The position numbers and the translations under genes were made by a program. From an uncultured Thermoleophilia bacterium (lineage in GTDB: Bacteria > Actinomycetota > Thermoleophilia > UBA2241), in contig CAIOZS010000216.1 of assembly GCA_903862845.1 (NCBI GenBank), positions 1-37,265 on the forward strand: DNA of 37,265 bases, given 5' to 3'. Below, in pieces: positions 536 to 12,974 of this stretch. Below the pieces are notes generated by a model. That model did not search any database and had not been told where the DNA came from. It worked only from the letters and a program-made list of their open reading frames with translations. Position 1 is the stretch's first letter, and each line of letters starts with the position of its first letter.

Positions 536-3463
536 TCAGATGAGCTGGCGCTCCGCCAGCCGCTTGAACAGGCCCGGCCGGCTCATGAGGTCGTCGTAGC
601 TGCCCTGCTGCGCGACGCGGCCGTCCTCCAGCACGTAGATGCGGTCGGCCGCTCTGACTGTGCTGAGGCGCTGGGCGATCACGACGCGCGTCGCATTGAG
701 CGCCTCGAGGCTCTGCATGACCTTGGCCTGCGTGCGATTGTCCAGGGCGCTCGTGGCCTCGTCGAAGAGCAGGATGGCCGGCTTGGTGCTCAAAGCGCGT
801 GCGATCAGGAGACGCTGCCGTTGGCCGCCCGAGAGCGTCACGCCGCCCTCGGCGACGTAGGTGAACATGCCCATGGGCATGGCCTCGATGTCGTCGGCGA
901 GACCGGCGGCGCGGGCCGCCTCCCAGATCTCGTCCTGCGTGAGATGGGCGGCGCCGGCGATGTTGAGCTGGATCGACCCCGAGAAGACGCGGCCGTTCTG
1001 CAGCACGGTGCTGAGCTGGCGGCGCAGGGCGCCGAGGTCCAGCGTGCGCAGGTCCTGCCCGTCGTAGTGGATCTCTCCGGACTCAGGCGTGTCGAAGCCG
1101 AGGAGCAGGCGGAACAGGGTGGACTTTCCGGCGCCCGAAGGGCCGACGATGGCCACGAACTCGCCGGGCCGCACCTCCAGAGAAAGGTCGTGGAGGGTGG
1201 GCTGCGCATCGGCCTCGTAGGAAAAGGTGACATGGCTCATCTCGATGCGGCCGCGCAGCTCGCCAGGGTCGGCCTTGGTGTCGTCGACCTCGGGCATGGC
1301 CTCGAGGATGGGCTTGGTGCGCTCGTAAAGCGGGGCGGCCGTGGTGAGCGAGACGAGCGCCATGCTCATCGCGAGGAGCCCCGCGAGGAGCTGGGCGAAG
1401 GCTGCCGTGTATGCCATGAACTGGCCGGTCTGGAAGCTGTTGTGGACGAAGAAGAAGAAAACGGCGAAGGCGCCGGCCGAACAGATCAGCGGGAAGGCGG
1501 CATTGAAGACGTTGGCCACGATGGCGATCTTCGAGGCTCTGAGCGTGTGGCGCGTCATCTCGACGAAGCCGTCGCTCCAGCGGGCGAAGGCGCGCTCCTC
1601 AGCGCCCGTGTCGCGCAGCTTGGCGACCGCCGAGACGAGCTGGAGGACGACGCCGGAGAGCTCGCCCTGACGGGCCAGGACGAGGCGTCGCTCACGTAGC
1701 TGCGCCAGGGCCGTGATCAGCGACACCGCGAAGGCGATGGCCATCAGGATGAGCGCCAGCAGTGCGAGCTGCGCGTCGTAGGTGAGGATCAGCACCAGGT
1801 TCACCAGCGAGAACACGGCGCCGAGCAGCGAGCCGAGCACGCTATTGAAGAAGATCGCGCTGATCTGGTTGATGTACATGACTCGCGTGGAAAGGTCGCC
1901 GGCGGTGAACTGGCGGAAGAACGAGGGCGGCAGCGCGAGAAGTCTGTCCCAGAGCGCCGCCTGGAGCTCATTGTCCATGCGCGTCTGGACGCGGACAGTA
2001 GTTACGCCGCGCGTGTAGGAGAACACGCCGAGGGTGACCGCGAGCACGAGGAGGACGGCGGCGATCTGGGTGAGCCCGGAGCTGTTGCCCGCGGGCACGA
2101 CGTAGCTGAACACGATGTTCGTGAAGATGGGCACCGCGAGTCCGATCAGCGCTGCGAGCAGGCTGAGCAGGCCGATGGCGAGGATGTCGCGGCGGCTGCC
2201 GCGCAGCACGTAGGCGAGGATGTCGCGGCCGCGCAGCGGGCGCTCGGGCAGGGGGCGGTAGAACATGTAGCCCGTCGGCTTGAGCGTCGCGGCGAAGGCC
2301 GCGTCCACGACGAGGGGCTGCGGCGAACCCGTCACGTGTGCCCGGTAGCTCTTGGACGAGGCCGGGAGAAGCGCCACAGGCGCGCCGTCGGAGTCGGTGA
2401 AGGCCAGCAGCGGGCCGCTGTCCCGGCGCCACCATCCGCCATCGAGCTTGATCACGCGGAAGCGTACGTGAGAGGCGCGGGCGATCGCCGATACGGGGTC
2501 GTAGATCCTGCCCTTCCAGGTTTCGGGCGGCGGGTGGAAGCGCGCGCCGAGCCGCCCGCCGATGATCCTGCAGGCGCGGAGCAGATCGTCCTCGTCCACG
2601 CCCTCCGTGCCGGGCGCGATGGCGTCGAGCACGCTCGCCTGGCGGGCGAGGGTGTGTGAGAAGGCCTGCTGGAGCACCGTCTCGCGGAGCTGCAGGCGCT
2701 CCAGCTCGGCCTCTTCTTCGCGCTGATAGCGCGCCGAGAGGCCGCGCATGAGGAGGTCGAGCAAGTCGTCCAAGGGGGCCAGCCCGGGCTCGCCCCGCCA
2801 AGCTTGCGCGAGATGCATGACGTCGCAGGTGGCGGCTTCGTGCGCCTCGAGCCACGTGTCGCTGGTGAGAGGGACCCAGCCTTGGCCCGGGTCCAGCGGC
2901 ATGGCTGGATCGGAGACGAGGAGCGCCCGACCCTGGGTGACGCGCACGCAGGTCGCGCCGCCGCGGGCGGTCAGCGACTCCCCTTCGGCCAGCGAAAGGG
3001 TCGTGCCCGGAGCGGCCGCAAGGCAAGCGTACGGACGACGCGCCTCGGGCAGCACGGCGCTCAGCGTCTCTGCCCATTCCGAGAGCGCGAGCACGGCGAG
3101 GAGGCGCTCCTCGGGATCCGCCAGCAGCGCCGACACCTCGGCGCGCGAGAGCGGCACGATCGTGGCCGTACCCGACGGCACGGCGAGCAGCGCCATGCCG
3201 TCGGCGCCCAGGGCGCCGGGCGAGACCGAGTGTCCGGAGATGAACTGGCCCGGCCCGGCCTGAGCCACGTGGTGCCGGGCGCGAGGCTCCCCACCGGCGT
3301 CGATGCTCACGGCGAAGACGTCGATGCCGCCGGCGATGACGGCCCAGTACTGGTCGCGGTCGTCGAGCAACCAGGGCTGGTTGCCCTGCAGTTCGACGTC
3401 GTCGTGGCCGGCGAGCCACGAGCCGTCGTCGGCGGGTGGTCTACTCGCGGACGAGGGCGGCAT
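536..3463 (-). CDS. NHLM bacteriocin system ABC transporter, ATP-binding protein (no peptidase domain)
   Basis: A 975-residue ABC exporter half-transporter of the type found beside C39-peptidase ABC proteins in NHLM (nitrile hydratase leader microcin) export loci. The first ~400 residues are a long soluble region without a C39 peptidase. A six-helix exporter domain follows (about 425-715), then an ATPase domain with Walker A GPSGAGKST (~774), signature LSGGQ (~877) and Walker B ILLFDEATSALD (~897). The length and long N-terminal extension match the second ABC subunit of these systems, which presumably pairs with the upstream gene product in the membrane. Its start overlaps the upstream gene by 23 bases, pointing to translational coupling. 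The likely substrate is a ribosomally made peptide with a double-Gly-type leader, but no precursor gene is visible nearby. Confidence 0.9.
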   Translation of the reverse strand: MPPSSASRPPADDGSWLAGHDDVELQGNQPWLLDDRDQYWAVIAGGIDVFAVSIDAGGEPRARHHVAQAGPGQFISGHSVSPGALGADGMALLAVPSGTATIVPLSRAEVSALLADPEERLLAVLALSEWAETLSAVLPEARRPYACLAAAPGTTLSLAEGESLTARGGATCVRVTQGRALLVSDPAMPLDPGQGWVPLTSDTWLEAHEAATCDVMHLAQAWRGEPGLAPLDDLLDLLMRGLSARYQREEEAELERLQLRETVLQQAFSHTLARQASVLDAIAPGTEGVDEDDLLRACRIIGGRLGARFHPPPETWKGRIYDPVSAIARASHVRFRVIKLDGGWWRRDSGPLLAFTDSDGAPVALLPASSKSYRAHVTGSPQPLVVDAAFAATLKPTGYMFYRPLPERPLRGRDILAYVLRGSRRDILAIGLLSLLAALIGLAVPIFTNIVFSYVVPAGNSSGLTQIAAVLLVLAVTLGVFSYTRGVTTVRVQTRMDNELQAALWDRLLALPPSFFRQFTAGDLSTRVMYINQISAIFFNSVLGSLLGAVFSLVNLVLILTYDAQLALLALILMAIAFAVSLITALAQLRERRLVLARQGELSGVVLQLVSAVAKLRDTGAEERAFARWSDGFVEMTRHTLRASKIAIVANVFNAAFPLICSAGAFAVFFFFVHNSFQTGQFMAYTAAFAQLLAGLLAMSMALVSLTTAAPLYERTKPILEAMPEVDDTKADPGELRGRIEMSHVTFSYEADAQPTLHDLSLEVRPGEFVAIVGPSGAGKSTLFRLLLGFDTPESGEIHYDGQDLRTLDLGALRRQLSTVLQNGRVFSGSIQLNIAGAAHLTQDEIWEAARAAGLADDIEAMPMGMFTYVAEGGVTLSGGQRQRLLIARALSTKPAILLFDEATSALDNRTQAKVMQSLEALNATRVVIAQRLSTVRAADRIYVLEDGRVAQQGSYDDLMSRPGLFKRLAERQLI

Positions 3464-5600
3464 AGAATCCCTTCAGGTCCAAGAGCTGATCGTGCGTGCC
3501 TCGCTCGACGATGACTCCGTTGTCGAGCACCAGGATCTCGTCGCAATCGCGGATCGTGCTCAGCCGGTGAGCGATGATCAAGCACGTGCAGCCGCGGCGT
3601 CGCAAGGCGCGGTCGATTCTCGCTTCGGTCACCGGATCGAGAGCGCTCGTGGCCTCGTCGAGGATGACGATGCGCGGGTTCACGGCAAGCGCGCGCGCGA
3701 TCTCGAGGCGCTGGCGCTCACCGCCGCTGAAGTTGACTCCCCCCTCTGCGATGGGACCGGAAAAGCCACCGCGGCGGCTCGCCAGAACGTCCCGCGCGCA
3801 CGCGTCCTCGGCGGCGCGCAGCACCCAATCCTCGGGCACAGTCGTGTCCCACATCGTGAGGTTGTCCGTGCCGCTCCCGGCGAACAGGTAGATATCCTGG
3901 CTGACGCGCGATACTGATCCGACCATGACCTCGCGGGGTATCTGCTCGCGCGGCCTGCCGTCGAAGAGGATCTGACCTTCCCATGGCTCGAAGAGGCCGC
4001 AGACGAGGTTGGCGATCGTGGTCTTGCCGCTCCCCGAGCCTCCGACGATCGCCACGCGCCGGCCGGGTCGCACGACCAGATTGAAGTCGCGGATCAAGGG
4101 CTCCTCGAGGGGGCTGTACCCGAAGACGAGGCCGCGGACCTCGAGGTGGCCGTCGAGCTTGGGCGTGACGTCGATCCGTGACGGCGCGGAAGACCCGCCT
4201 TCGAGCTGAGGATCGATCGGCGCCTTGAGGACGTCGTCCAGACGGTTCATGTCTCCGTGGGCCTCCTGGACTGTGGCGCCGAGGGTGACGAGCGTCGCGA
4301 ACGGCGCGATGAACGCGGCCATGAGCGCCATGAAGGCGGCCAGCATACCGACCGTTAGCTGGCCCTGGATGACGAACCACGCGCCCCAGGTGAGCATGAT
4401 CAGGGCGTTGAACTGGCCGAGGAAGACGGGCACGGAGTTGAGGAGCTGCGTCTTGACGCCGAGCGTCTGGGTGGCGTCGACCACGGCCGCCTGGAACCCG
4501 CCGAAGCGCGCAAAGAAGCTGTCCTCCATGCCGCTGGCCTTGATCGTCTCGATCATCTGCAGACCGGCCATGGTGGTGCCGGTCAGCTTGCCCGACTCCT
4601 GCAACATGCGCCTGTTGGCGTCGGTGCGGCGCCTCGAGACCACGCGCAGGGCGATCAGATTGAGGGCGGCGACGAGGATGCCGGTCAGCGTGAGCGGCCA
4701 CGAATAGGCGCCCATCATGACGAGATAGAAGACCAGCGTGAGCAGCGTGATCACCGTGGTCGCGAGCTGGCCGGACAAGAGCGTGGCGACGATGTCGTTG
4801 AGCGCCACGCGGCTGCCGATCTCGCCGGCGTAGCGCTGCGAGAAGAACTGCACCGGCAGACGCAGCACGTGCCAGAAGAAGCGGCTTGACGTGGTCACGG
4901 AGAGCTTGACCTGCAGGCGCAGGAGGTAGATCTGCTGGAGCCAGGTGAGAAATGCGACCACGACGGCGGTCGCGACCATGATGCCGAGCAGGGGGATCAC
5001 CCAGGACTCGACGCCCTGCACCAGGTAGCCGTCCACGAAGACCTGGGTGAACACCGGCGAGACCAGCGCCGGAACCACCAGCGCCAGCCCGGCGAGGATC
5101 ACGAAGGCCAGGCCGCCGTGAGACGTTGCAAGGCGCGGCCGCAACGCTGAGACCAGGCTCGGCGGCCGGCCGCCGGTCTGGAAGTCCGGTCCTTTCTCGA
5201 ACAGCAGGGCGACGCCCGTGTAGCTCTCGCCGAACTCTTCGTAGGTCACCCAGCGAGGTCCGCTGGCGGGGTCGTTGAGAAACACGCGCTTCCTGCCAAA
5301 ACCTTCGACGACCACGAAGTGGCTGAACTTCCAAAACACGATGAGCGGCGGCGTGCGGCGCCGCAGCTCGGCGACCTCGAGCCGCCAGCCACCCGCCTCG
5401 AGGCCCAGGGCGCGCGCCGCCTTGAGGATGCTCGTGGCCTTGCTGCCGTCGCGCGAGACGCCGCAGCGGACGCGCAGCTCCTCGAGCGGCACGTAGCGGC
5501 CATAGTACGCGAGGATGATGCCGAGCGCGGCGGCGCCGCACTCTACCGCTTCCATCTGAAGGACCGTCGGGGTCCGCACCCGGCGGTGGGGCTGCTCCAT
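3441..5600 (-). CDS. NHLM bacteriocin system ABC transporter, C39 peptidase/ATP-binding protein
   Basis: A 719-residue peptidase-containing ABC exporter. The N-terminal C39 peptidase domain has Gln15 and the nucleophile Cys21 (in QMEAVECG), His94 (in FSHFVVV) and Asp110 (in NDPASG), the full catalytic set for cleaving leader peptides after a Gly-Gly-type motif. The transmembrane domain spans about 160-450. The ATPase domain has Walker A GGSGSGKTT (~520), signature FSGGERQ (~624) and Walker B IVILDEATSALD (~644). The start codon overlaps the stop of the HlyD-like gene by one base (TGATG) and the 3' end overlaps the next gene by 23 bases, so all three genes form one tightly coupled operon. It should cleave and export a peptide across the cytoplasmic membrane. 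Confidence 0.93.
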   Translation of the reverse strand: MEQPHRRVRTPTVLQMEAVECGAAALGIILAYYGRYVPLEELRVRCGVSRDGSKATSILKAARALGLEAGGWRLEVAELRRRTPPLIVFWKFSHFVVVEGFGRKRVFLNDPASGPRWVTYEEFGESYTGVALLFEKGPDFQTGGRPPSLVSALRPRLATSHGGLAFVILAGLALVVPALVSPVFTQVFVDGYLVQGVESWVIPLLGIMVATAVVVAFLTWLQQIYLLRLQVKLSVTTSSRFFWHVLRLPVQFFSQRYAGEIGSRVALNDIVATLLSGQLATTVITLLTLVFYLVMMGAYSWPLTLTGILVAALNLIALRVVSRRRTDANRRMLQESGKLTGTTMAGLQMIETIKASGMEDSFFARFGGFQAAVVDATQTLGVKTQLLNSVPVFLGQFNALIMLTWGAWFVIQGQLTVGMLAAFMALMAAFIAPFATLVTLGATVQEAHGDMNRLDDVLKAPIDPQLEGGSSAPSRIDVTPKLDGHLEVRGLVFGYSPLEEPLIRDFNLVVRPGRRVAIVGGSGSGKTTIANLVCGLFEPWEGQILFDGRPREQIPREVMVGSVSRVSQDIYLFAGSGTDNLTMWDTTVPEDWVLRAAEDACARDVLASRRGGFSGPIAEGGVNFSGGERQRLEIARALAVNPRIVILDEATSALDPVTEARIDRALRRRGCTCLIIAHRLSTIRDCDEILVLDNGVIVERGTHDQLLDLKGFYAALVRE

Positions 5601-6469
5601 CAGTCCGTGCCACCAAAGAAGCGTTTAAGCGAAGGGAAGGCGTAGGTGATCGGCGGGTCCTCCGACAGAACGATGCGGGCGCTGAAGGCGGTACCGGAGG
5701 AGATCTTCGTGTCGGGGCCGTTGGATGACGACCACGCGTAGCCGCTGGGGTTGCCGGGCGCCTCGATCAGTCTCGCCTGGATGCGCAGCGTCGGCCCGGC
5801 GGCGGAGAACTGCTGCACCAGGTAGTCGTTCTGAAGGACAGCGGACATGCTCTCGGGAGTGGACGGCAGAATGGCCACGAAAACGACGACGCCGCGCAGA
5901 TAACCATACTGCTCGACGTTCACGGTGGCAGGGATGATCTGGACCTGCTGACCGAGCTTGACCTTCTTGCCGATCTCGTCGGGCAGATAGAGCGTCGCCA
6001 TGAGGGGCTCGTCGGTGGCCTCGATGGTGACGATGGGCCCCCCCGGCGCAACGTACTGTCCCTCATAGGCCTGGAGTGAGTCCACGACGCCCGAATACGG
6101 CGAGATGACGTCTGCTGCCATGGTCTGCGTCGCGGCCGGAAGGTCGGCGACGGCCACGGTGGCGATCGCCTGTCCGGTGCTGACGCGGTCGCCGAGGTGG
6201 ACCTTGAGCGTCGCCAGCTCGCCACCGTACAGCGTGACGACGCGCTGCGTATGGCCACCTCGCAGCAGCATGCCCTCGCCGCTGACCGTGGTGGCCAGCT
6301 TGCCGACGGAGGCCCACACCGCGGCGGTGATGATGAGCGCGGCGACCGCGCCGAGCGTGAGCCACGCGCGCGGATGCGTGACCGTGACGAGGCGGTCGAG
6401 CTCGTCGATATCGTTGAGGCGCGCCAGCGCCTCGCGCCGGAAGAGGGTGTTCTTGTCCTGGCGCGGCAT
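5600..6469 (-). CDS. NHLM bacteriocin system secretion protein (HlyD-like adaptor)
   Basis: A 289-residue membrane-fusion-type protein. It has a short cytoplasmic N-terminus (LFRREALARLNDIDELDRL, typical of NHLM HlyD proteins), one membrane helix at about 37-54 (LTLGAVAALIITAAVWA), and then biotinyl-lipoyl-like β segments (LKVHLGDRVSTGQAIA and ISPYSGVVDSLQAYEGQYV). It lacks the long coiled-coil hairpin of Gram-negative HlyD, as is usual for this short family. It probably forms the extracytoplasmic adaptor for the two ABC proteins encoded downstream. The ATG has a GAGGAGGT SD 11 bases upstream. It is the first gene of the operon and is divergent from the mttB-like genes. Confidence 0.9.
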   Translation of the reverse strand: MPRQDKNTLFRREALARLNDIDELDRLVTVTHPRAWLTLGAVAALIITAAVWASVGKLATTVSGEGMLLRGGHTQRVVTLYGGELATLKVHLGDRVSTGQAIATVAVADLPAATQTMAADVISPYSGVVDSLQAYEGQYVAPGGPIVTIEATDEPLMATLYLPDEIGKKVKLGQQVQIIPATVNVEQYGYLRGVVVFVAILPSTPESMSAVLQNDYLVQQFSAAGPTLRIQARLIEAPGNPSGYAWSSSNGPDTKISSGTAFSARIVLSEDPPITYAFPSLKRFFGGTD

Positions 6470-6729
6470 GGGGTTCGAGTACCTCCTCGGTCACCGCGCA
6501 GAGCATATGCTATTTCGGGCGCGAGTTTCGTCCGGGCTCCCGGCCGCGCCGACGTCTCTCGGCGCCGCGGCCGCGGCCCGTCGATCGCTCGCGCTCTCGT
6601 AGGCGGCGAAGTTCGCATTCCTCGCGATCCGTGCGACGAATCGTGCGGCAAACCTCGCGCGCCGGCTGCGAACCAGGTCTGCCGGGCGAGCCCTATGGTA
6701 CCCTGTCGCCGGGCGAAGAAGGAGGCCTT
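6470..6729. other. Divergent intergenic region between NHLM operon and mttB-like cluster
   Basis: A 260-base region that must hold the promoters of both divergent operons. It contains a perfect 10-base palindrome 'agcatatgct' (6502-6511), AT-rich against a GC-rich background and placed where a minus-strand -10 region would fall. On the plus strand 'tatggtaccct' (about 6693-6703) could give a -10 for the first mttB-like gene. No convincing -35 boxes and no small ORF resembling an NHLP or Nif11 leader peptide were found on either strand. Confidence 0.4.
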
Positions 6730-8154
6730 GTGGCCAGGGCGAGAGCGACGTATCTGTCTGAGCGCGAGAAGGACTTCCTCCACGAGAAGACTCTCGAGGT
6801 CCTCGAGAAGGTCGGCGTGGCGTACAACACGCCCAAGGCGATCGACCTGCTCGCGGCCGCGGGGGCCGAGGTGGACCGGGACGCGCTCACGGCGAAGCTC
6901 ACCTGGGAGATCATCGAGCCGTGCCTGAGGAGCGTGCCGAAGACGGTGCTCCTGGCCGGCCGGCGGCCGGAGAACGATCGTGTGCTGGGCGAATGGCCCC
7001 TGCACGCGACCACCGACGGCATCCAGACCTACGTGTACGACGATCTCAGCGGCCGGCGGCGCGAAGGCACGGCTGCCGATCTGGAGACCTTCGTCAAGCT
7101 TGGCGATGCTCTTTCGGAGGTCGACGCCATCTGGCCGTCCCCACAGGCCAGCGACATCGACCCGTACATGCTTCCCGTCAAGTTCGCCGAGCTCACGATC
7201 CGCAACACGAGCAAGCACGTTCAGGACGAGGTCCGCGAGCCGGACCTCGTTGAGCCCATTCTCGCCATGTACGAGGCAGCGGCCGGCGCGCCGCTGACCG
7301 AGCGGCCCTGTTTCTCGGTGACCAACTGTACTATCGCGCCGCTGCAGCACGACCGCGACATGACCGAAGCGGCGCTCAAGATGATCACGCGCGGCGTGCC
7401 GATCTTCATCCTGCCGATGCCGCAGGCGGGCACCACAGGGCCGATGACCCTGGCGAGCACGTGCATCGTCAACATGGCCGAGCTGCTCTCTGCCGTGGTC
7501 CTCTTTCAGCTCGCCGCGCCCGGCTGCGCGCTCATCTCCGGGGTCGGCTCGGCGGTCGCGGAGATGCGCACCGGCGGGTACATCGCGGCCGCGCCCGAGA
7601 TCGGCCTCATCAACCTGACGTGCATTGAGATGAGCAAGTACTACGGCCTGCTGACGCAGGCGACCGGCATTTCCGCGGATGCCAAGGCGCCGAATTTCCA
7701 GGCCGGCTCCGAAGGCGGCATGACCGGCCTGTGCGCGGCGCTCGCCGGCGCCGACTCTCTGATCGCCACGGGGGCCTTCGATGGCGTGCAGACCGAGAGC
7801 CTGGCCAAGGCCGTGCTCGACAACGACCAGCTCGGGGCGCTGCGCCGGTATGTCCGAGAGAGTCCTATCGACGAGAGCACCGCCCTGATGGACGACATCC
7901 TCGAGGTCGGCATCGGCGGGCATTTCCTGGCGCGCAAGAGCACGCGCGCCTTTTCGCGCAGCGAGATCTGGCGGCCGCAGGTGTTTCAGCGCGGCTCGTT
8001 CGAAGAGCACCAGGCGCCCGGGCGCGCGCTGATCGAAGTGGCCGTCCAGCGCGCCCACGACCTGCTCGCCGGCCACGAGGTCGCGCCGCTCGCCGAGGAC
8101 GCCGCTCGCGAGATCGCCGCGATCGTGGCGCGTCACGAGGCGGCGCGGCCCTGA
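6730..8154 (+). CDS. MttB-superfamily (non-pyrrolysine) methyltransferase, paralogue 1
   Basis: A 474-residue member of the trimethylamine methyltransferase MttB superfamily (COG5598). Its characterised non-pyrrolysine members (MtgB, MtpB, MtcB, MtyB) move a methyl group from quaternary amines to a corrinoid protein. Recognisable segments shared with its two neighbours are NCTIAPLQHD, NMAELLSAVVLFQLAAPGC, GSAVAEMRTG, NLTCIEMSK and DAKAPNFQAGSEGG. No in-frame TAG interrupts the ORF, so it is not a pyrrolysine enzyme. The ORF-track start at 6631 is too far upstream: GTG at 6730 has the SD AAGAAGGAGG and yields the N-terminus MARARATYLSE, matching paralogue 3 (MARPRLSYLTD). No corrinoid protein or reactivase is nearby, so the substrate and acceptor are unknown. 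Confidence 0.88.
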   Translation: MARARATYLSEREKDFLHEKTLEVLEKVGVAYNTPKAIDLLAAAGAEVDRDALTAKLTWEIIEPCLRSVPKTVLLAGRRPENDRVLGEWPLHATTDGIQTYVYDDLSGRRREGTAADLETFVKLGDALSEVDAIWPSPQASDIDPYMLPVKFAELTIRNTSKHVQDEVREPDLVEPILAMYEAAAGAPLTERPCFSVTNCTIAPLQHDRDMTEAALKMITRGVPIFILPMPQAGTTGPMTLASTCIVNMAELLSAVVLFQLAAPGCALISGVGSAVAEMRTGGYIAAAPEIGLINLTCIEMSKYYGLLTQATGISADAKAPNFQAGSEGGMTGLCAALAGADSLIATGAFDGVQTESLAKAVLDNDQLGALRRYVRESPIDESTALMDDILEVGIGGHFLARKSTRAFSRSEIWRPQVFQRGSFEEHQAPGRALIEVAVQRAHDLLAGHEVAPLAEDAAREIAAIVARHEAARP

Positions 8155-8163
8155 CATCGGCGT

Positions 8164-8196
8164 CGCGCCGGCGCCCCATGCGCTGTGGCCGGCGCG
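8164..8196 (+). other. Intercistronic hairpin after mttB-like 1
   Basis: A 9-bp inverted repeat ('cgcgccggc' / 'gccggcgcg') with a 15-base loop begins 10 bases after the stop codon. It has no T tract. It could be a weak terminator or an mRNA-stabilising hairpin between paralogues 1 and 2. Confidence 0.35.
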
Positions 8197-8307
8197 CCGC
8201 GGGCGTCGCTCTCGCGATAGAGTGAAGGCGGACGCCGCTCCTCTGCAGATGGCGTCTGCTGAAGCAGCTGCGGGAAGAACGAGGAGGGCACGCTGGCGAG
8301 AGCCCGC

Positions 8308-9750
8308 ATGACGTACCTCTCCGAGGTGGAGAGGCAGTTCGTCCACGAGCAGACGATGCGCGTCCTCGCGGAGGTCGGCGTCGGCTACAACTCGGCGGCC
8401 GCGATCGACCTGCTCGAGGAGGCCGGCGCCGAGGTCGATCGGGCGCGCCTGCGCGCGCGGCTCCCGTGGGAGCTCGTCGAGCGCTGCCTCAGGACCTGTC
8501 CGCGCCGGGTACGCCTGGCGGGACGCGCGCCGGGCACAGACGTCGTGCTCGGGGACGGCTCGCTCACCTTCTGCACGGACGGCACGGGCACGTACATGTA
8601 CGACGACGTCACCGGGATCCGCAGCGAAGGCACGGCGCAGGCGCTGCGGCAGGTGATGCGCCTGTTCGACGCGCTTCCCGAGGTGGACTATGCGTGGCCT
8701 TCCATCTCGGCCCGCGACCTCGACCCGCTGACGGCCGGTCTGGAGATCGAAGCGATATCGCTGGACTGCTTCAGCAGGCATATTCAGGACGAGGTCCGCG
8801 AGGCGGCGCACGTGAAGCCGCTGCTGGAGATCCTTGAGGCGGTGGCCGGTGGCTCTCTTTGGGACCGGCCCGTCTTCAGCACGATCAACTGCACCATCGC
8901 CCCTCTGCAGCACGAGCGCGAGATGACTGCGGCGACGATGGAGCTCGTCAAGGCCGGCGTGCCGGTGTTGATCCTGCCGATGCCCCTCAGCGGCACGACC
9001 TCGCCGATGACCGTCCTCGGCACGACCATCGTCAACATGGCCGAGCTGCTCAGCGCCGTCGTGCTCTTCCAGCTCGCGCAGCCCGGCTGCGGGCTGATCT
9101 CCGGAGTGGGTGCGGCGGTCGCCAATATGCGCACCGGCGCCTACCTCTGCGGAGCGCCCGAGGTCGGGCTCATCAACGTGATCTGCATCGAGATGAGCCG
9201 TTTCTACGGACTGCCGGTGACCGGCAGCGCCGTGACCAGCGACGCCAAAGCGAGCAACCTGCAGGCCGGCTCCGAGGGCATGCTCACCGGTCTCGCCTGC
9301 GCCCTCGCGGGGGCCGACAGCATGCTGGCCTTCGGCCTGATGGACGGCGCCGAGACGGTGAGCCTGGCCAAGATCATCCTGGACTGCGACGTCGTGGGCG
9401 CGATCAAGCGCTTCGCCCGGGAGGACCCCATTGACGCCATGACGGCGCTCACCGGCGACATCGCCGCCGTGGGGGTAGGCGGGCACTTCTTGGGCGCGAG
9501 GAGCACGCGGCAGTTCTACCGCGCGGGCGAGCTCTGGCAGCCGCGCGTGTTCCAGCGAGACCCGTTCGAGACCTACGCCGGCGGGAGCCTGATCGACGAC
9601 GCGGCCGAACAGGCCCGCGAGCTGCTGGCCGCTCACGCAGTGCCGCCTCTCGCCGACGATGTCGCCGCTGAGATCGAGCGCGTCCTCGAGAGCTACGCGC
9701 GGAGTGTGGGCGCCCCCGAGTCGCGCATCCGCTGGCGCGAGCCTGCGTGA
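8308..9750 (+). CDS. MttB-superfamily (non-pyrrolysine) methyltransferase, paralogue 2
   Basis: A 480-residue paralogue of its two neighbours, colinear throughout (NCTIAPLQHE, NMAELLSAVVLFQLAQPGC, GAAVANMRTG, DAKASNLQAGSEGM, STRQFYRAGELWQP). The predicted role is the same: corrinoid-dependent demethylation of a methylated or quaternary amine, with a different substrate likely. The first ATG (8308) has no well-placed SD. An in-frame CTG at 8293 lies four bases after GAGGAGGG and would give the N-terminus (M)ARARMTYLSE, which aligns exactly with the starts of paralogues 1 and 3, so translation may begin at 8293. The protein has a slightly longer C-terminal tail than its paralogues. The reading frame has no internal stop. 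Confidence 0.88.
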   Translation: MTYLSEVERQFVHEQTMRVLAEVGVGYNSAAAIDLLEEAGAEVDRARLRARLPWELVERCLRTCPRRVRLAGRAPGTDVVLGDGSLTFCTDGTGTYMYDDVTGIRSEGTAQALRQVMRLFDALPEVDYAWPSISARDLDPLTAGLEIEAISLDCFSRHIQDEVREAAHVKPLLEILEAVAGGSLWDRPVFSTINCTIAPLQHEREMTAATMELVKAGVPVLILPMPLSGTTSPMTVLGTTIVNMAELLSAVVLFQLAQPGCGLISGVGAAVANMRTGAYLCGAPEVGLINVICIEMSRFYGLPVTGSAVTSDAKASNLQAGSEGMLTGLACALAGADSMLAFGLMDGAETVSLAKIILDCDVVGAIKRFAREDPIDAMTALTGDIAAVGVGGHFLGARSTRQFYRAGELWQPRVFQRDPFETYAGGSLIDDAAEQARELLAAHAVPPLADDVAAEIERVLESYARSVGAPESRIRWREPA

Positions 9751-9959
9751 GCGACGAGCACGTGCTCCTCGGCGTCACGTACGTGTCCGTTCTTCCGCAC
9801 GTACGGCTGCGCCGCGGTGGCGTTCGGCCACGAGCGCGATATCCTCATGGGTGAACGCCCGCGCCGCGAGCAGTTCGGCCGCGGCTGCGAACCGCGGGCG
9901 CTGACGAAACGGATCGACGACACCGGCCCGCCGGATGGGCCGCGAAGCAAGGGGGAGGC
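9751..9959 (+). promoter_or_regulatory. mttB-like 2/3 spacer with clustered CACGT palindromes
   Basis: A 209-base spacer, the longest gap in the cluster. It holds a perfect 12-base palindrome 'gagcacgtgctc' (9756-9767), a 10-base palindrome 'cacgtacgtg' (9776-9785), and an inverted repeat 'cgtacgtg'/'cacgtacg' (9778-9785 and 9798-9805). Three ACGT-core sites within 50 bases look like a binding site or a processed hairpin. No recognisable gene lies in the spacer; short ORFs in it resemble nothing I know. Confidence 0.35.
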
Positions 9960-11384
9960 GTGGCACGACCGCGACTGAGCTATCTGACCGACAGTGACAA
10001 GGAGCTCGTCCACGAGCAGACGCTGCGCGTGCTCGCCGAGGTCGGCGTCGGCTACGGCACGCCGACACTGACCGCGCTGCTCGCCGACGCAGGCGCGACC
10101 GTGGACGCCGAGGCGCTCACTGCGAAGCTGCCGTGGGAGCTCATCCAGCGCTGCCTGAAGATGGTCCCGCGAGACGTTCATCTGGCGGGGCGCGATCCGG
10201 CCTACGACTGCTGGATCAACGACCAGGGGATGCTATACACGAGCGACGGCGCCGCCACCTACATGCTCGACGACCTGACCGGTGAGCGGCACGAAGGCAC
10301 CGCCGCCGATCTGGCCACGATGATGTGCCTCTACGACGCGATGCCCGAGATCGACTTCACCTGGGCCACCATCACCCCCGGCGACGTTGACGCGCGAGTC
10401 GGCAACCTCGAGATGGCGCGCATCACGTACGAGAGCTCGCGCAAGCATCTGCAGGACGAGGTCCGGCATCCAGACCAGGTGCCGGTGTTCATCGACATGC
10501 TCCAGGCGATCGCCGGAGCGCCGCTCCGCGAGCGCCCGATCTGGTCGGCGACCAACTGCACGATCGCTCCGCTGCAGCACGACGCCGAGATGACCGAGGC
10601 GCACATCCTCATGGCGCGAGCCGGCTGCCCCATCTTCGTGCTGCCGATGCCCCAGATGGGTACGACCGGGCCAATGAGCGTGCTTGGTACCAGCGTCGTC
10701 AACATGGCCGAGCTGCTGAGCGCGGTCGTGCTGTTCCAGCTCGCGGCCCCCGGGTGCGCGATGGTCTCCGCCGTCGGCTCGGCCGTCGCGGAGATGCGCA
10801 GCGGTCTTTACCTGTCGGGGACGCCCGAAGACGGGCTCATCAACCTCACCTGCATCGAGATGAGCAAGTTCTACGGGCTGCGCAGCCAGGGCAGCGCCGT
10901 GAGCTGCGACGCCAAGGCCTGCGACCTGCAGGCCGGCGCCGAGGGTATGCTCACGGGACTGGCGACGGCTCTCGCCGGGGCCGACGTCATGCTCGCCTTC
11001 GGCCTCATGGACAGCGCCCAGACGGCGAGCCTGGCGAAGACGGTGCTCGACGCCGACACGGTTAACGCCATTGAGCGCTTTCTGCGCGACGATCCGATTG
11101 ACGAGGCGCGTGCGCTGGTCGACGACATCGTCGCGGTTGGCATCGGCGGGCACTACTTGACGCGCAAGAGCACGCGGCAGTTCTATCGCGCCGGTGAGCT
11201 CTGGCAACCGCGGCTCTGGCACCGGGAGTCGTTCGAGCACTACGTCGACACTCCACTTGTGAAGGACGCCTGGGAACGCGCCCACGAGCTGATCGAGAAC
11301 AACGACGTGCCGCCGCTGCCCGAAGACGTTCAGCGGCACGTGAGCACGCTCATCGCCGACTACCTGCGCAGCCGCGAGCAATGA
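9960..11384 (+). CDS. MttB-superfamily (non-pyrrolysine) methyltransferase, paralogue 3
   Basis: A 474-residue third tandem member, very similar to paralogues 1 and 2 by eye over its full length (NCTIAPLQHD, NMAELLSAVVLFQLAAPGC, GSAVAEMRSG, NLTCIEMSKF, DAKACDLQAGAEGM). The GTG start at 9960 follows the purine run AAGGGGGAGG closely; the spacing is short, but the N-terminus MARPRLSYL agrees with paralogue 1. Its stop codon overlaps the next gene's start as ATGA, so the SpeE-like/IscX fusion is translationally coupled to it. A methyltransferase acting on a quaternary or tertiary amine through a corrinoid protein is the family expectation; neither substrate nor corrinoid partner can be told from this window. 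Confidence 0.88.
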   Translation: MARPRLSYLTDSDKELVHEQTLRVLAEVGVGYGTPTLTALLADAGATVDAEALTAKLPWELIQRCLKMVPRDVHLAGRDPAYDCWINDQGMLYTSDGAATYMLDDLTGERHEGTAADLATMMCLYDAMPEIDFTWATITPGDVDARVGNLEMARITYESSRKHLQDEVRHPDQVPVFIDMLQAIAGAPLRERPIWSATNCTIAPLQHDAEMTEAHILMARAGCPIFVLPMPQMGTTGPMSVLGTSVVNMAELLSAVVLFQLAAPGCAMVSAVGSAVAEMRSGLYLSGTPEDGLINLTCIEMSKFYGLRSQGSAVSCDAKACDLQAGAEGMLTGLATALAGADVMLAFGLMDSAQTASLAKTVLDADTVNAIERFLRDDPIDEARALVDDIVAVGIGGHYLTRKSTRQFYRAGELWQPRLWHRESFEHYVDTPLVKDAWERAHELIENNDVPPLPEDVQRHVSTLIADYLRSREQ

Positions 11385-12358
11385 AGCCGGGGGGCGCCCG
11401 CGCGACGCGCACGGCGCCCGTGCGCGTGTGGCCGGCCGGCGTGAGCGCGGTGGTCGAGGTGCTCGAGCGCGAAGCGGGGCGCAGCGGCGAGCTGGTGCTG
11501 CGCCGCAGCGGCGCCGCTCTCGAGGTGATCCTGAACGGCGCCTTCCTCATCTCTACCGCCAACGAGGTCTCCAGCCGCGCCATGGTGACGGCCGCCCTGC
11601 CGCACCTCGCCGGCGACGCTCTCGAGGTGCTCATCGGCGGCCTCGGCCTCGGCTACGCTCTCGACGAAGCGCTCGCCGGCGGGCGCGTCTCGGGCGTGAC
11701 CGTGGCGGAGTACGAGCCGGCGATCGTGCGCTGGTTTCGCGCCTACGGGGAGGGGCGCGCGGAGCGCGCCGCCGCCGGCGAGCGCGCCGGGCAAGCCACC
11801 ATTGCGGTCGCGGACGTGGTCGACGTGCTGAAGGCACGCCCGGAGGGCTTCGATCTGGTTGCGCTCGACACCGACAACGGCCCGGACTGGCTGGTGCGCG
11901 AGGCCAACGCCGGCCTCTACTCCGAGGCCGGCGTGCAGCTCGCGTGCCGCGCCCTGCGGCCGGGCGGAGCCGTCGTCTTCTGGTCACCCGAACGCTACAC
12001 CGGGTTCGAGCGGTCGCTGGCCGGGGTCTTCGCTCGTGTCGAGCGCGTCTCTGCCTTCGATGTCGTGCAGGGCCGCCGTCACGAGTACACCATGTACGTG
12101 GGTCTGCGGGACGACGCCCGTCGCGAGGATAGGATAGGTGCAGAGGCTGAAGGAGGCCGCATGGGGCTCACATGGACGGAGCCGGGCGAGATAGCTTGGG
12201 CGTTGATCGACGCGCACCCGGACGCAGACCCTCTCGATCTCAACTTCGTGGATTTGCAGCGCATGATCGTGGCGCTTCCCGACTTCGGCGACGATCCCGA
12301 CGAGGCCAGCGAGACCAGGCTCGAGGCCGTCGTGGTGGCTTGGCATGAGCAGCGCTGA
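11381..12358 (+). CDS. Spermidine-synthase-like protein fused to IscX
   Basis: A 325-residue protein of two parts. Residues ~1-245 have a Rossmann methyltransferase-like fold of the spermidine synthase family: motif I VLIGGLGLGYALDEAL, acidic strand VTVAEYEP, and FDLVALDTDNGPDWL. Residues ~261-325 are a complete IscX (YfhJ) protein: MGLTWTEPGEIAWAL, FVDLQRMIVALPDFGDDP and LEAVVVAWHEQ correspond to E. coli IscX end to end. The linker (DARREDRIGAEAEGGR) is polar and contains no stop. A strong SD (TGAAGGAGG) lies inside the linker, five bases before the IscX ATG at 12161, so IscX may also be made separately. The gene is ATGA-coupled to mttB-like 3 and overlaps the Lon-domain gene by 14 bases. 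No iscS or iscU is nearby. The activity of the SpeE-like part is unknown. Confidence 0.8.
   Translation: MKPGGARATRTAPVRVWPAGVSAVVEVLEREAGRSGELVLRRSGAALEVILNGAFLISTANEVSSRAMVTAALPHLAGDALEVLIGGLGLGYALDEALAGGRVSGVTVAEYEPAIVRWFRAYGEGRAERAAAGERAGQATIAVADVVDVLKARPEGFDLVALDTDNGPDWLVREANAGLYSEAGVQLACRALRPGGAVVFWSPERYTGFERSLAGVFARVERVSAFDVVQGRRHEYTMYVGLRDDARREDRIGAEAEGGRMGLTWTEPGEIAWALIDAHPDADPLDLNFVDLQRMIVALPDFGDDPDEASETRLEAVVVAWHEQR
12161..12358 (+). CDS. iscX: IscX produced from an internal start (alternative product)
   Basis: The last 65 codons of the preceding ORF form a full-length IscX by themselves. IscX is a small acidic protein that binds IscS and modulates Fe-S cluster assembly. The ATG at 12161 has the near-ideal SD 'aaggagg' five bases upstream, better than that of most genes in the window. 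Either IscX is made both fused and free, or the upstream gene has lost its own stop codon. The conserved FDDDP-type acidic motif is present as DFGDDP. Confidence 0.55.
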   Translation: MGLTWTEPGEIAWALIDAHPDADPLDLNFVDLQRMIVALPDFGDDPDEASETRLEAVVVAWHEQR

Positions 12359-12974
12359 GGAGGCCACCCTCGGGCTCTTCCCGCTGGGCCTCGTGCTGCT
12401 GCCCGGCGAGGTGGTGCCGCTGCACATCTTCGAGGAGCGCTACAAGCTGCTCGTGCACGAACGGCTCGACGGCGGCGAGCTCGGCATCGTCCTCACGGAG
12501 AACGGCGAGCTGCACGAGTGCGGGTGCACCGCGCGCGTGGCTGAGCTTCTCGAAGAGCTCGACGACGGGCGCATGAACATCCTCGTCGAGGGCGGGCGGC
12601 GTTTTCGCCTTCTGGAGCTGCGCTCGCCGGCCGACCCGGAGGCTCAGTACCTCAGCGGCCTGATCGACTACTACGAGGATGAGGAGCCCGAGGCGCCGGC
12701 GGCGCTGCGTGCCGGCGTGCTTGAGGTCTTTCGCAAGATGCTCCTTCTGATGGACGTGGAGTCGCCGAAAGAGCCGGTCGGCGCAGGCGCGCTTTCCTTT
12801 CGCGTGGCGGCCGCCTTCGACTTCGGCGCGCCGCTCAAACAGGAGCTGCTCGAATCTCTCAGCGAGGCGCAGCGCCTCGAGACCCTTCTCCGCGTCATGG
12901 AGGCGCTGCTGCCTCAGCTCAAGCTGCGCAAGGACCGCGAACAAGCTATCCGCGGCAACGGCAAGGGGTATTAG
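12345..12974 (+). CDS. LON peptidase substrate-binding domain protein
   Basis: A 209-residue protein made only of a Lon N-terminal (PUA-like) domain, with no AAA ATPase or Ser-Lys protease part. The typical start LGLFPLGLVLLPGEVVPLHIFEERY and the strand NILVEGGRRFRLLEL are present, followed by a helical C-terminal half. Such stand-alone proteins are widespread and poorly characterised. The ATG overlaps the end of the IscX ORF by 14 bases, so it is probably translated from the same message. It ends nine bases before the convergent MDR gene. Confidence 0.85.
   Translation: MSSAEEATLGLFPLGLVLLPGEVVPLHIFEERYKLLVHERLDGGELGIVLTENGELHECGCTARVAELLEELDDGRMNILVEGGRRFRLLELRSPADPEAQYLSGLIDYYEDEEPEAPAALRAGVLEVFRKMLLLMDVESPKEPVGAGALSFRVAAAFDFGAPLKQELLESLSEAQRLETLLRVMEALLPQLKLRKDREQAIRGNGKGY

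Follow-up and report, generated by a model that had tools for sequence, protein, structure and literature searches.

A SpeE-like gene and iscX in one open frame in a Thermoleophilia draft genome, with the two genes separate in relatives

The SpeE-like/iscX locus and its operon

The DNA analysed here (the window) is a stretch of 37,265 nucleotides from an uncultured Thermoleophilia bacterium, corresponding to contig C216 of a 352-contig draft MAG of 4.38 Mb. Positions 11381-12358 of the forward strand form one uninterrupted ORF of 325 amino acids, with an ATG start and a TGA stop, in which a SpeE-like part (residues ~24-245) is followed by a full IscX (residues 261-325). The features of the locus are as follows.

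6631-8154, plus strand: MttB-like methyltransferase 1 (PF06253)
8308-9750, plus strand: MttB-like methyltransferase 2 (PF06253)
9960-11384, plus strand: MttB-like methyltransferase 3 (PF06253), whose stop and the SpeE-like start overlap
11381-12115, plus strand: SpeE-like protein with an aminopropyltransferase (Rossmann) fold; its homologous domain runs to about residue 245, and the motifs GGLGxG and LDTDNGPDW are shared with homologues
12116-12160, plus strand: linker, codons 246-260, an apparent former intergenic spacer now read through, with a net +1 base relative to the family genome G001; it includes the iscX Shine-Dalgarno
12149-12155, plus strand: Shine-Dalgarno AAGGAGG of iscX, just before the ATG at 12161; similar purine-rich sites precede iscX in close relatives
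12161-12358, plus strand: iscX, 65 amino acids, complete (PF04384, TIGR03412 and alignment to E. coli IscX)
12345-12974, plus strand: LON substrate-binding-domain protein (PF02190), overlapping the end of iscX by 14 nucleotides

At the threshold used, Pfam gave no match for the first part of the ORF, and residues ~36-203 match polyamine aminopropyltransferase models weakly, at scores far below the SpeE equivalog cut-offs (26.5 bits against 472, and 23.5 bits against 260). The aminopropyltransferase fold is nonetheless recovered when the AlphaFold model is compared with spermidine synthases (Foldseek E ~1e-13, TM ~0.6). Where the GGGDG motif is expected, the protein has GGLGLG, with GGLGxG in its homologues, and its LDTDNGPDW stretch is common to homologues in Thermoleophilia, Nocardiopsis, Pseudonocardia, Marinococcus and others. 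The proper name for this part should be SpeE-like, not spermidine synthase. A gene 64% identical to it, with no MttB or IscX nearby, is present on a contig of 1.17 Mb that bears the label Kiritimatiellae (L045:8001-8672), and reflects either transfer or a mislabelled bin.

The assignment of the second part is straightforward. Residues 263-324 match the Pfam IscX family PF04384 with 73.6 bits (cut-off 25) and NCBIfam TIGR03412 with 71 bits (cut-off 40.4), and E. coli IscX (PDB 2bzt/1uj8) aligns over 63 residues, beginning at residue 261, an internal methionine (E 8e-13). The open frame, the fold match and the PF04384 score thus bear out the first-pass annotation in its description of a single ORF that joins a SpeE-like Rossmann domain to a full-length IscX. 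Its statement that the ORF is coupled to an MttB-like methyltransferase gene is likewise confirmed, by a 4-nucleotide overlap (ATGA, 11381-11384) between the stop of that gene and the SpeE-like start.

The three consecutive MttB-like methyltransferases (6631-11384) are kept in much of the family, and among the part of the window's genes that was scanned, none next to them was recognised as coding for a corrinoid protein. Upstream, on the minus strand at 536-6469, an HlyD-like protein and two ABC exporters, of which one has a C39 peptidase domain, are encoded and together look like a peptide export cluster.

Separate genes in relatives and the DNA between them

The family sample comprised 15 genomes, eight of which, the window's included, carry iscX. 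In all eight, iscX is positioned between the SpeE-like gene and the LON substrate-binding-domain gene, and in each of the seven genomes other than the window's the SpeE-like frame ends in TAA, TAG or TGA, with the iscX start 23-129 nucleotides past that stop at frame offsets of 0, 1 or 2. A second genome with a fused frame was therefore not found among the seven relatives having both genes. In four further family genomes (G005, G009, G010 and G014), the SpeE-like gene adjoins LON and there is no iscX.

The junction sequences were judged sufficient for this comparison, being clean throughout in G006, G007 and G011, and clean at the SpeE-IscX junction in G001. Some of the other MAGs carry defects in the same operon. 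For instance, G001 (L025) has a deletion across the IscX-LON junction and is without the iscX end, G004 (L032) is missing most of the SpeE-like gene (residues ~1-196), and G008 (L034) has internal gaps in the MttB and SpeE-like genes, while G012 has a run of Ns near the SpeE-like end.

More widely, homology in 84,980 species genomes gave 72 loci, and in none of them do SpeE-like and IscX share a frame; two of the 72 have IscX, each with a stop between it and the SpeE-like gene. No shared neighbours of the SpeE-like gene were visible in Marinococcus, Halalkalibacterium and others, and neither IscX nor MttB was matched near it there. A conserved fusion is rejected, as no second genome has it, and a conserved SpeE-like/IscX partnership was not found outside the family. 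The suggestion of an evolved two-domain SpeE-IscX architecture does not survive these comparisons, given a linker stop and separate genes in all seven relatives with both genes, and linker DNA that resembles an intergenic spacer.

This resemblance is evident from several measures. Scored against the window's own codon usage, the SpeE-like part averages +0.50 and IscX +0.33 bits per codon, whereas the linker (codons 246-260) averages -0.60, and a value as low is reached by just 0.36% of 9529 in-gene windows of 15 codons. The rare codons AGG, ATA and GGA are present in it, and its third-position GC is 47%, against 91% in the SpeE-like part and 83% in IscX. In the predicted structural model, pLDDT falls below 50 at residues 248-259, between two confident domains. 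The codons and the low-pLDDT region fit a spacer across which translation now continues. Such evidence does not separate a true mutation from an assembly error, and a genuine fusion of recent date would show the same features.

In the case of G001, the best-matching relative at the junction, alignment shows the window to be longer by one net base in the interval from the shared MYVGLRDD to the iscX Shine-Dalgarno, and the aligner puts this base just before GGATAGG. The corresponding stretch reads RGVD-stop in G001 and DGVN-stop in G006. A single inserted base is the parsimonious reading of this alignment; from the placed gap up to the Shine-Dalgarno, the window and G001 differ enough that it falls short of proof.

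The strong Shine-Dalgarno within the linker had been taken as a sign of two products, fused and free. The site is indeed present, and counterparts of AAGGAGG precede iscX in G001 (GAAGGAGG), G004 (GAGGAGG) and G006 (GAAGGGGG). This is the normal ribosome site of iscX, found in close relatives too, and it does not argue for dual products by design.

How the frame may have become open

Very probably, the locus consists of ordinary adjacent operon genes, speE-like and iscX, that are joined in frame in this assembly only, by mutation or by assembly error. The DNA between the two domains has one net extra base relative to G001, which on this reading removes the usual SpeE-like stop and carries the SpeE-like frame into the iscX frame. 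Since the iscX ATG retains its own strong Shine-Dalgarno, free IscX is most likely still produced, probably as the main product. It would presumably act in trans on IscS, the cysteine desulfurase, whose gene lies at another place in the genome. The read-through SpeE-like-IscX protein would be a by-product, provided that the extra base is real, and we infer that the fusion has no selected role. As a counterpoint, the assembled ORF is open, and the fusion may exist in the organism.

An assembly or sequencing error, with a normal stop and two genes in the organism and the extra base an artefact of draft metagenome assembly, is a sub-case to which we give slightly less than an even chance. The 352 contigs of the MAG, the stop present in every relative and the damage to the same operon in other family MAGs (G001, G004 and G008) are consistent with it, whereas the remainder of the operon on the window's contig is intact and the site, AGGATAGGATAGG, is not a homopolymer. 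A true, recently formed fusion with a selected function, in which a tethered SpeE-like-IscX is made alongside free IscX from the internal start, would account for the open frame, the two intact domains and the strong internal Shine-Dalgarno. Such a fusion is very unlikely, however, as it is seen in no second genome, its linker is intergenic-like, its Shine-Dalgarno is inherited from a separate gene, and SpeE-like/IscX co-occurrence was not found outside the family. Intergenic-like linker codons and an internal ribosome site would also be kept by a young fusion. There is at best a slim chance that the base is real and that the species makes tethered and free forms, in which case the tether would supply the SpeE-like/MttB pathway with an IscX of its own. 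The preferred reading, of adjacent genes joined in this assembly only, keeps a single-base event in a draft genome from entering the record as a new protein architecture.

Distribution of iscX and comparison with known systems

All eight of the iscX genes found in 399 class genomes belong to the window's actinobacterial (Thermoleophilia) family, with none in the 384 class genomes sampled outside it, and in a spread of 396 phylum genomes the window's own was the only one. An iscX that is restricted to one family, always between SpeE-like and LON genes and away from iscSU, suggests horizontal acquisition.

Genes of the IscU/NifU type are present in all 15 family genomes. In the window's genome, an IscS-like aminotransferase lies beside IscU (L127, 8922-10595), adjoining alaS-, yqgF-, mltG- and aspS-like genes (named from reading their sequences), and a second, NifS-NifU-like pair is found elsewhere (L128, 8931-10956). 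These pairs are on other contigs, in keeping with the earlier remark that the ORF is far from iscS and iscU. IscX is reported to bind IscS and to depend on IscS in its distribution (PMC5801593), and the distribution seen here agrees with that dependence.

A SufB/D core was found in five of the seven family genomes that lack iscX, as against none of the eight that have it (Fisher p = 0.007, not corrected for phylogeny), the absences of SufB/D and iscX being provisional in incomplete MAGs. In G009 (L132:9196-10886), a 315-residue SufB-like gene lies beside a SufC-like ATPase, an arrangement that resembles the minimal SMS pair as outlined in PMC12192291. The iscX-bearing genomes of the family, in which no SufB/D-type gene was found, may be a useful natural case for testing the importance of IscX where IscSU is the only route.

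With respect to known systems, all three upstream genes match the non-pyrrolysine MttB superfamily (PF06253) over their full length, and the one tested scores 316 bits against the TIGR02369 equivalog cut-off of 525, and so is not the trimethylamine enzyme proper. The SpeE-like protein resembles spermidine synthase (polyamine aminopropyltransferase, SpeE) in its predicted fold but scores well under the family cut-offs, and in place of the GGGDG and TDSSDP stretch of human spermidine synthase it has GGLGxG and LDTDNGPDW; its activity probably differs from that of SpeE. The IscX part is the same full-length 65-residue domain as E. coli IscX (YfhJ; PDB 2bzt/1uj8; PF04384/TIGR03412). Whereas the E. 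coli gene lies at the end of the isc operon, the window's iscX belongs to an mttB/speE-like/LON operon away from iscSU and, unlike its E. coli counterpart, reads in frame with the upstream gene.
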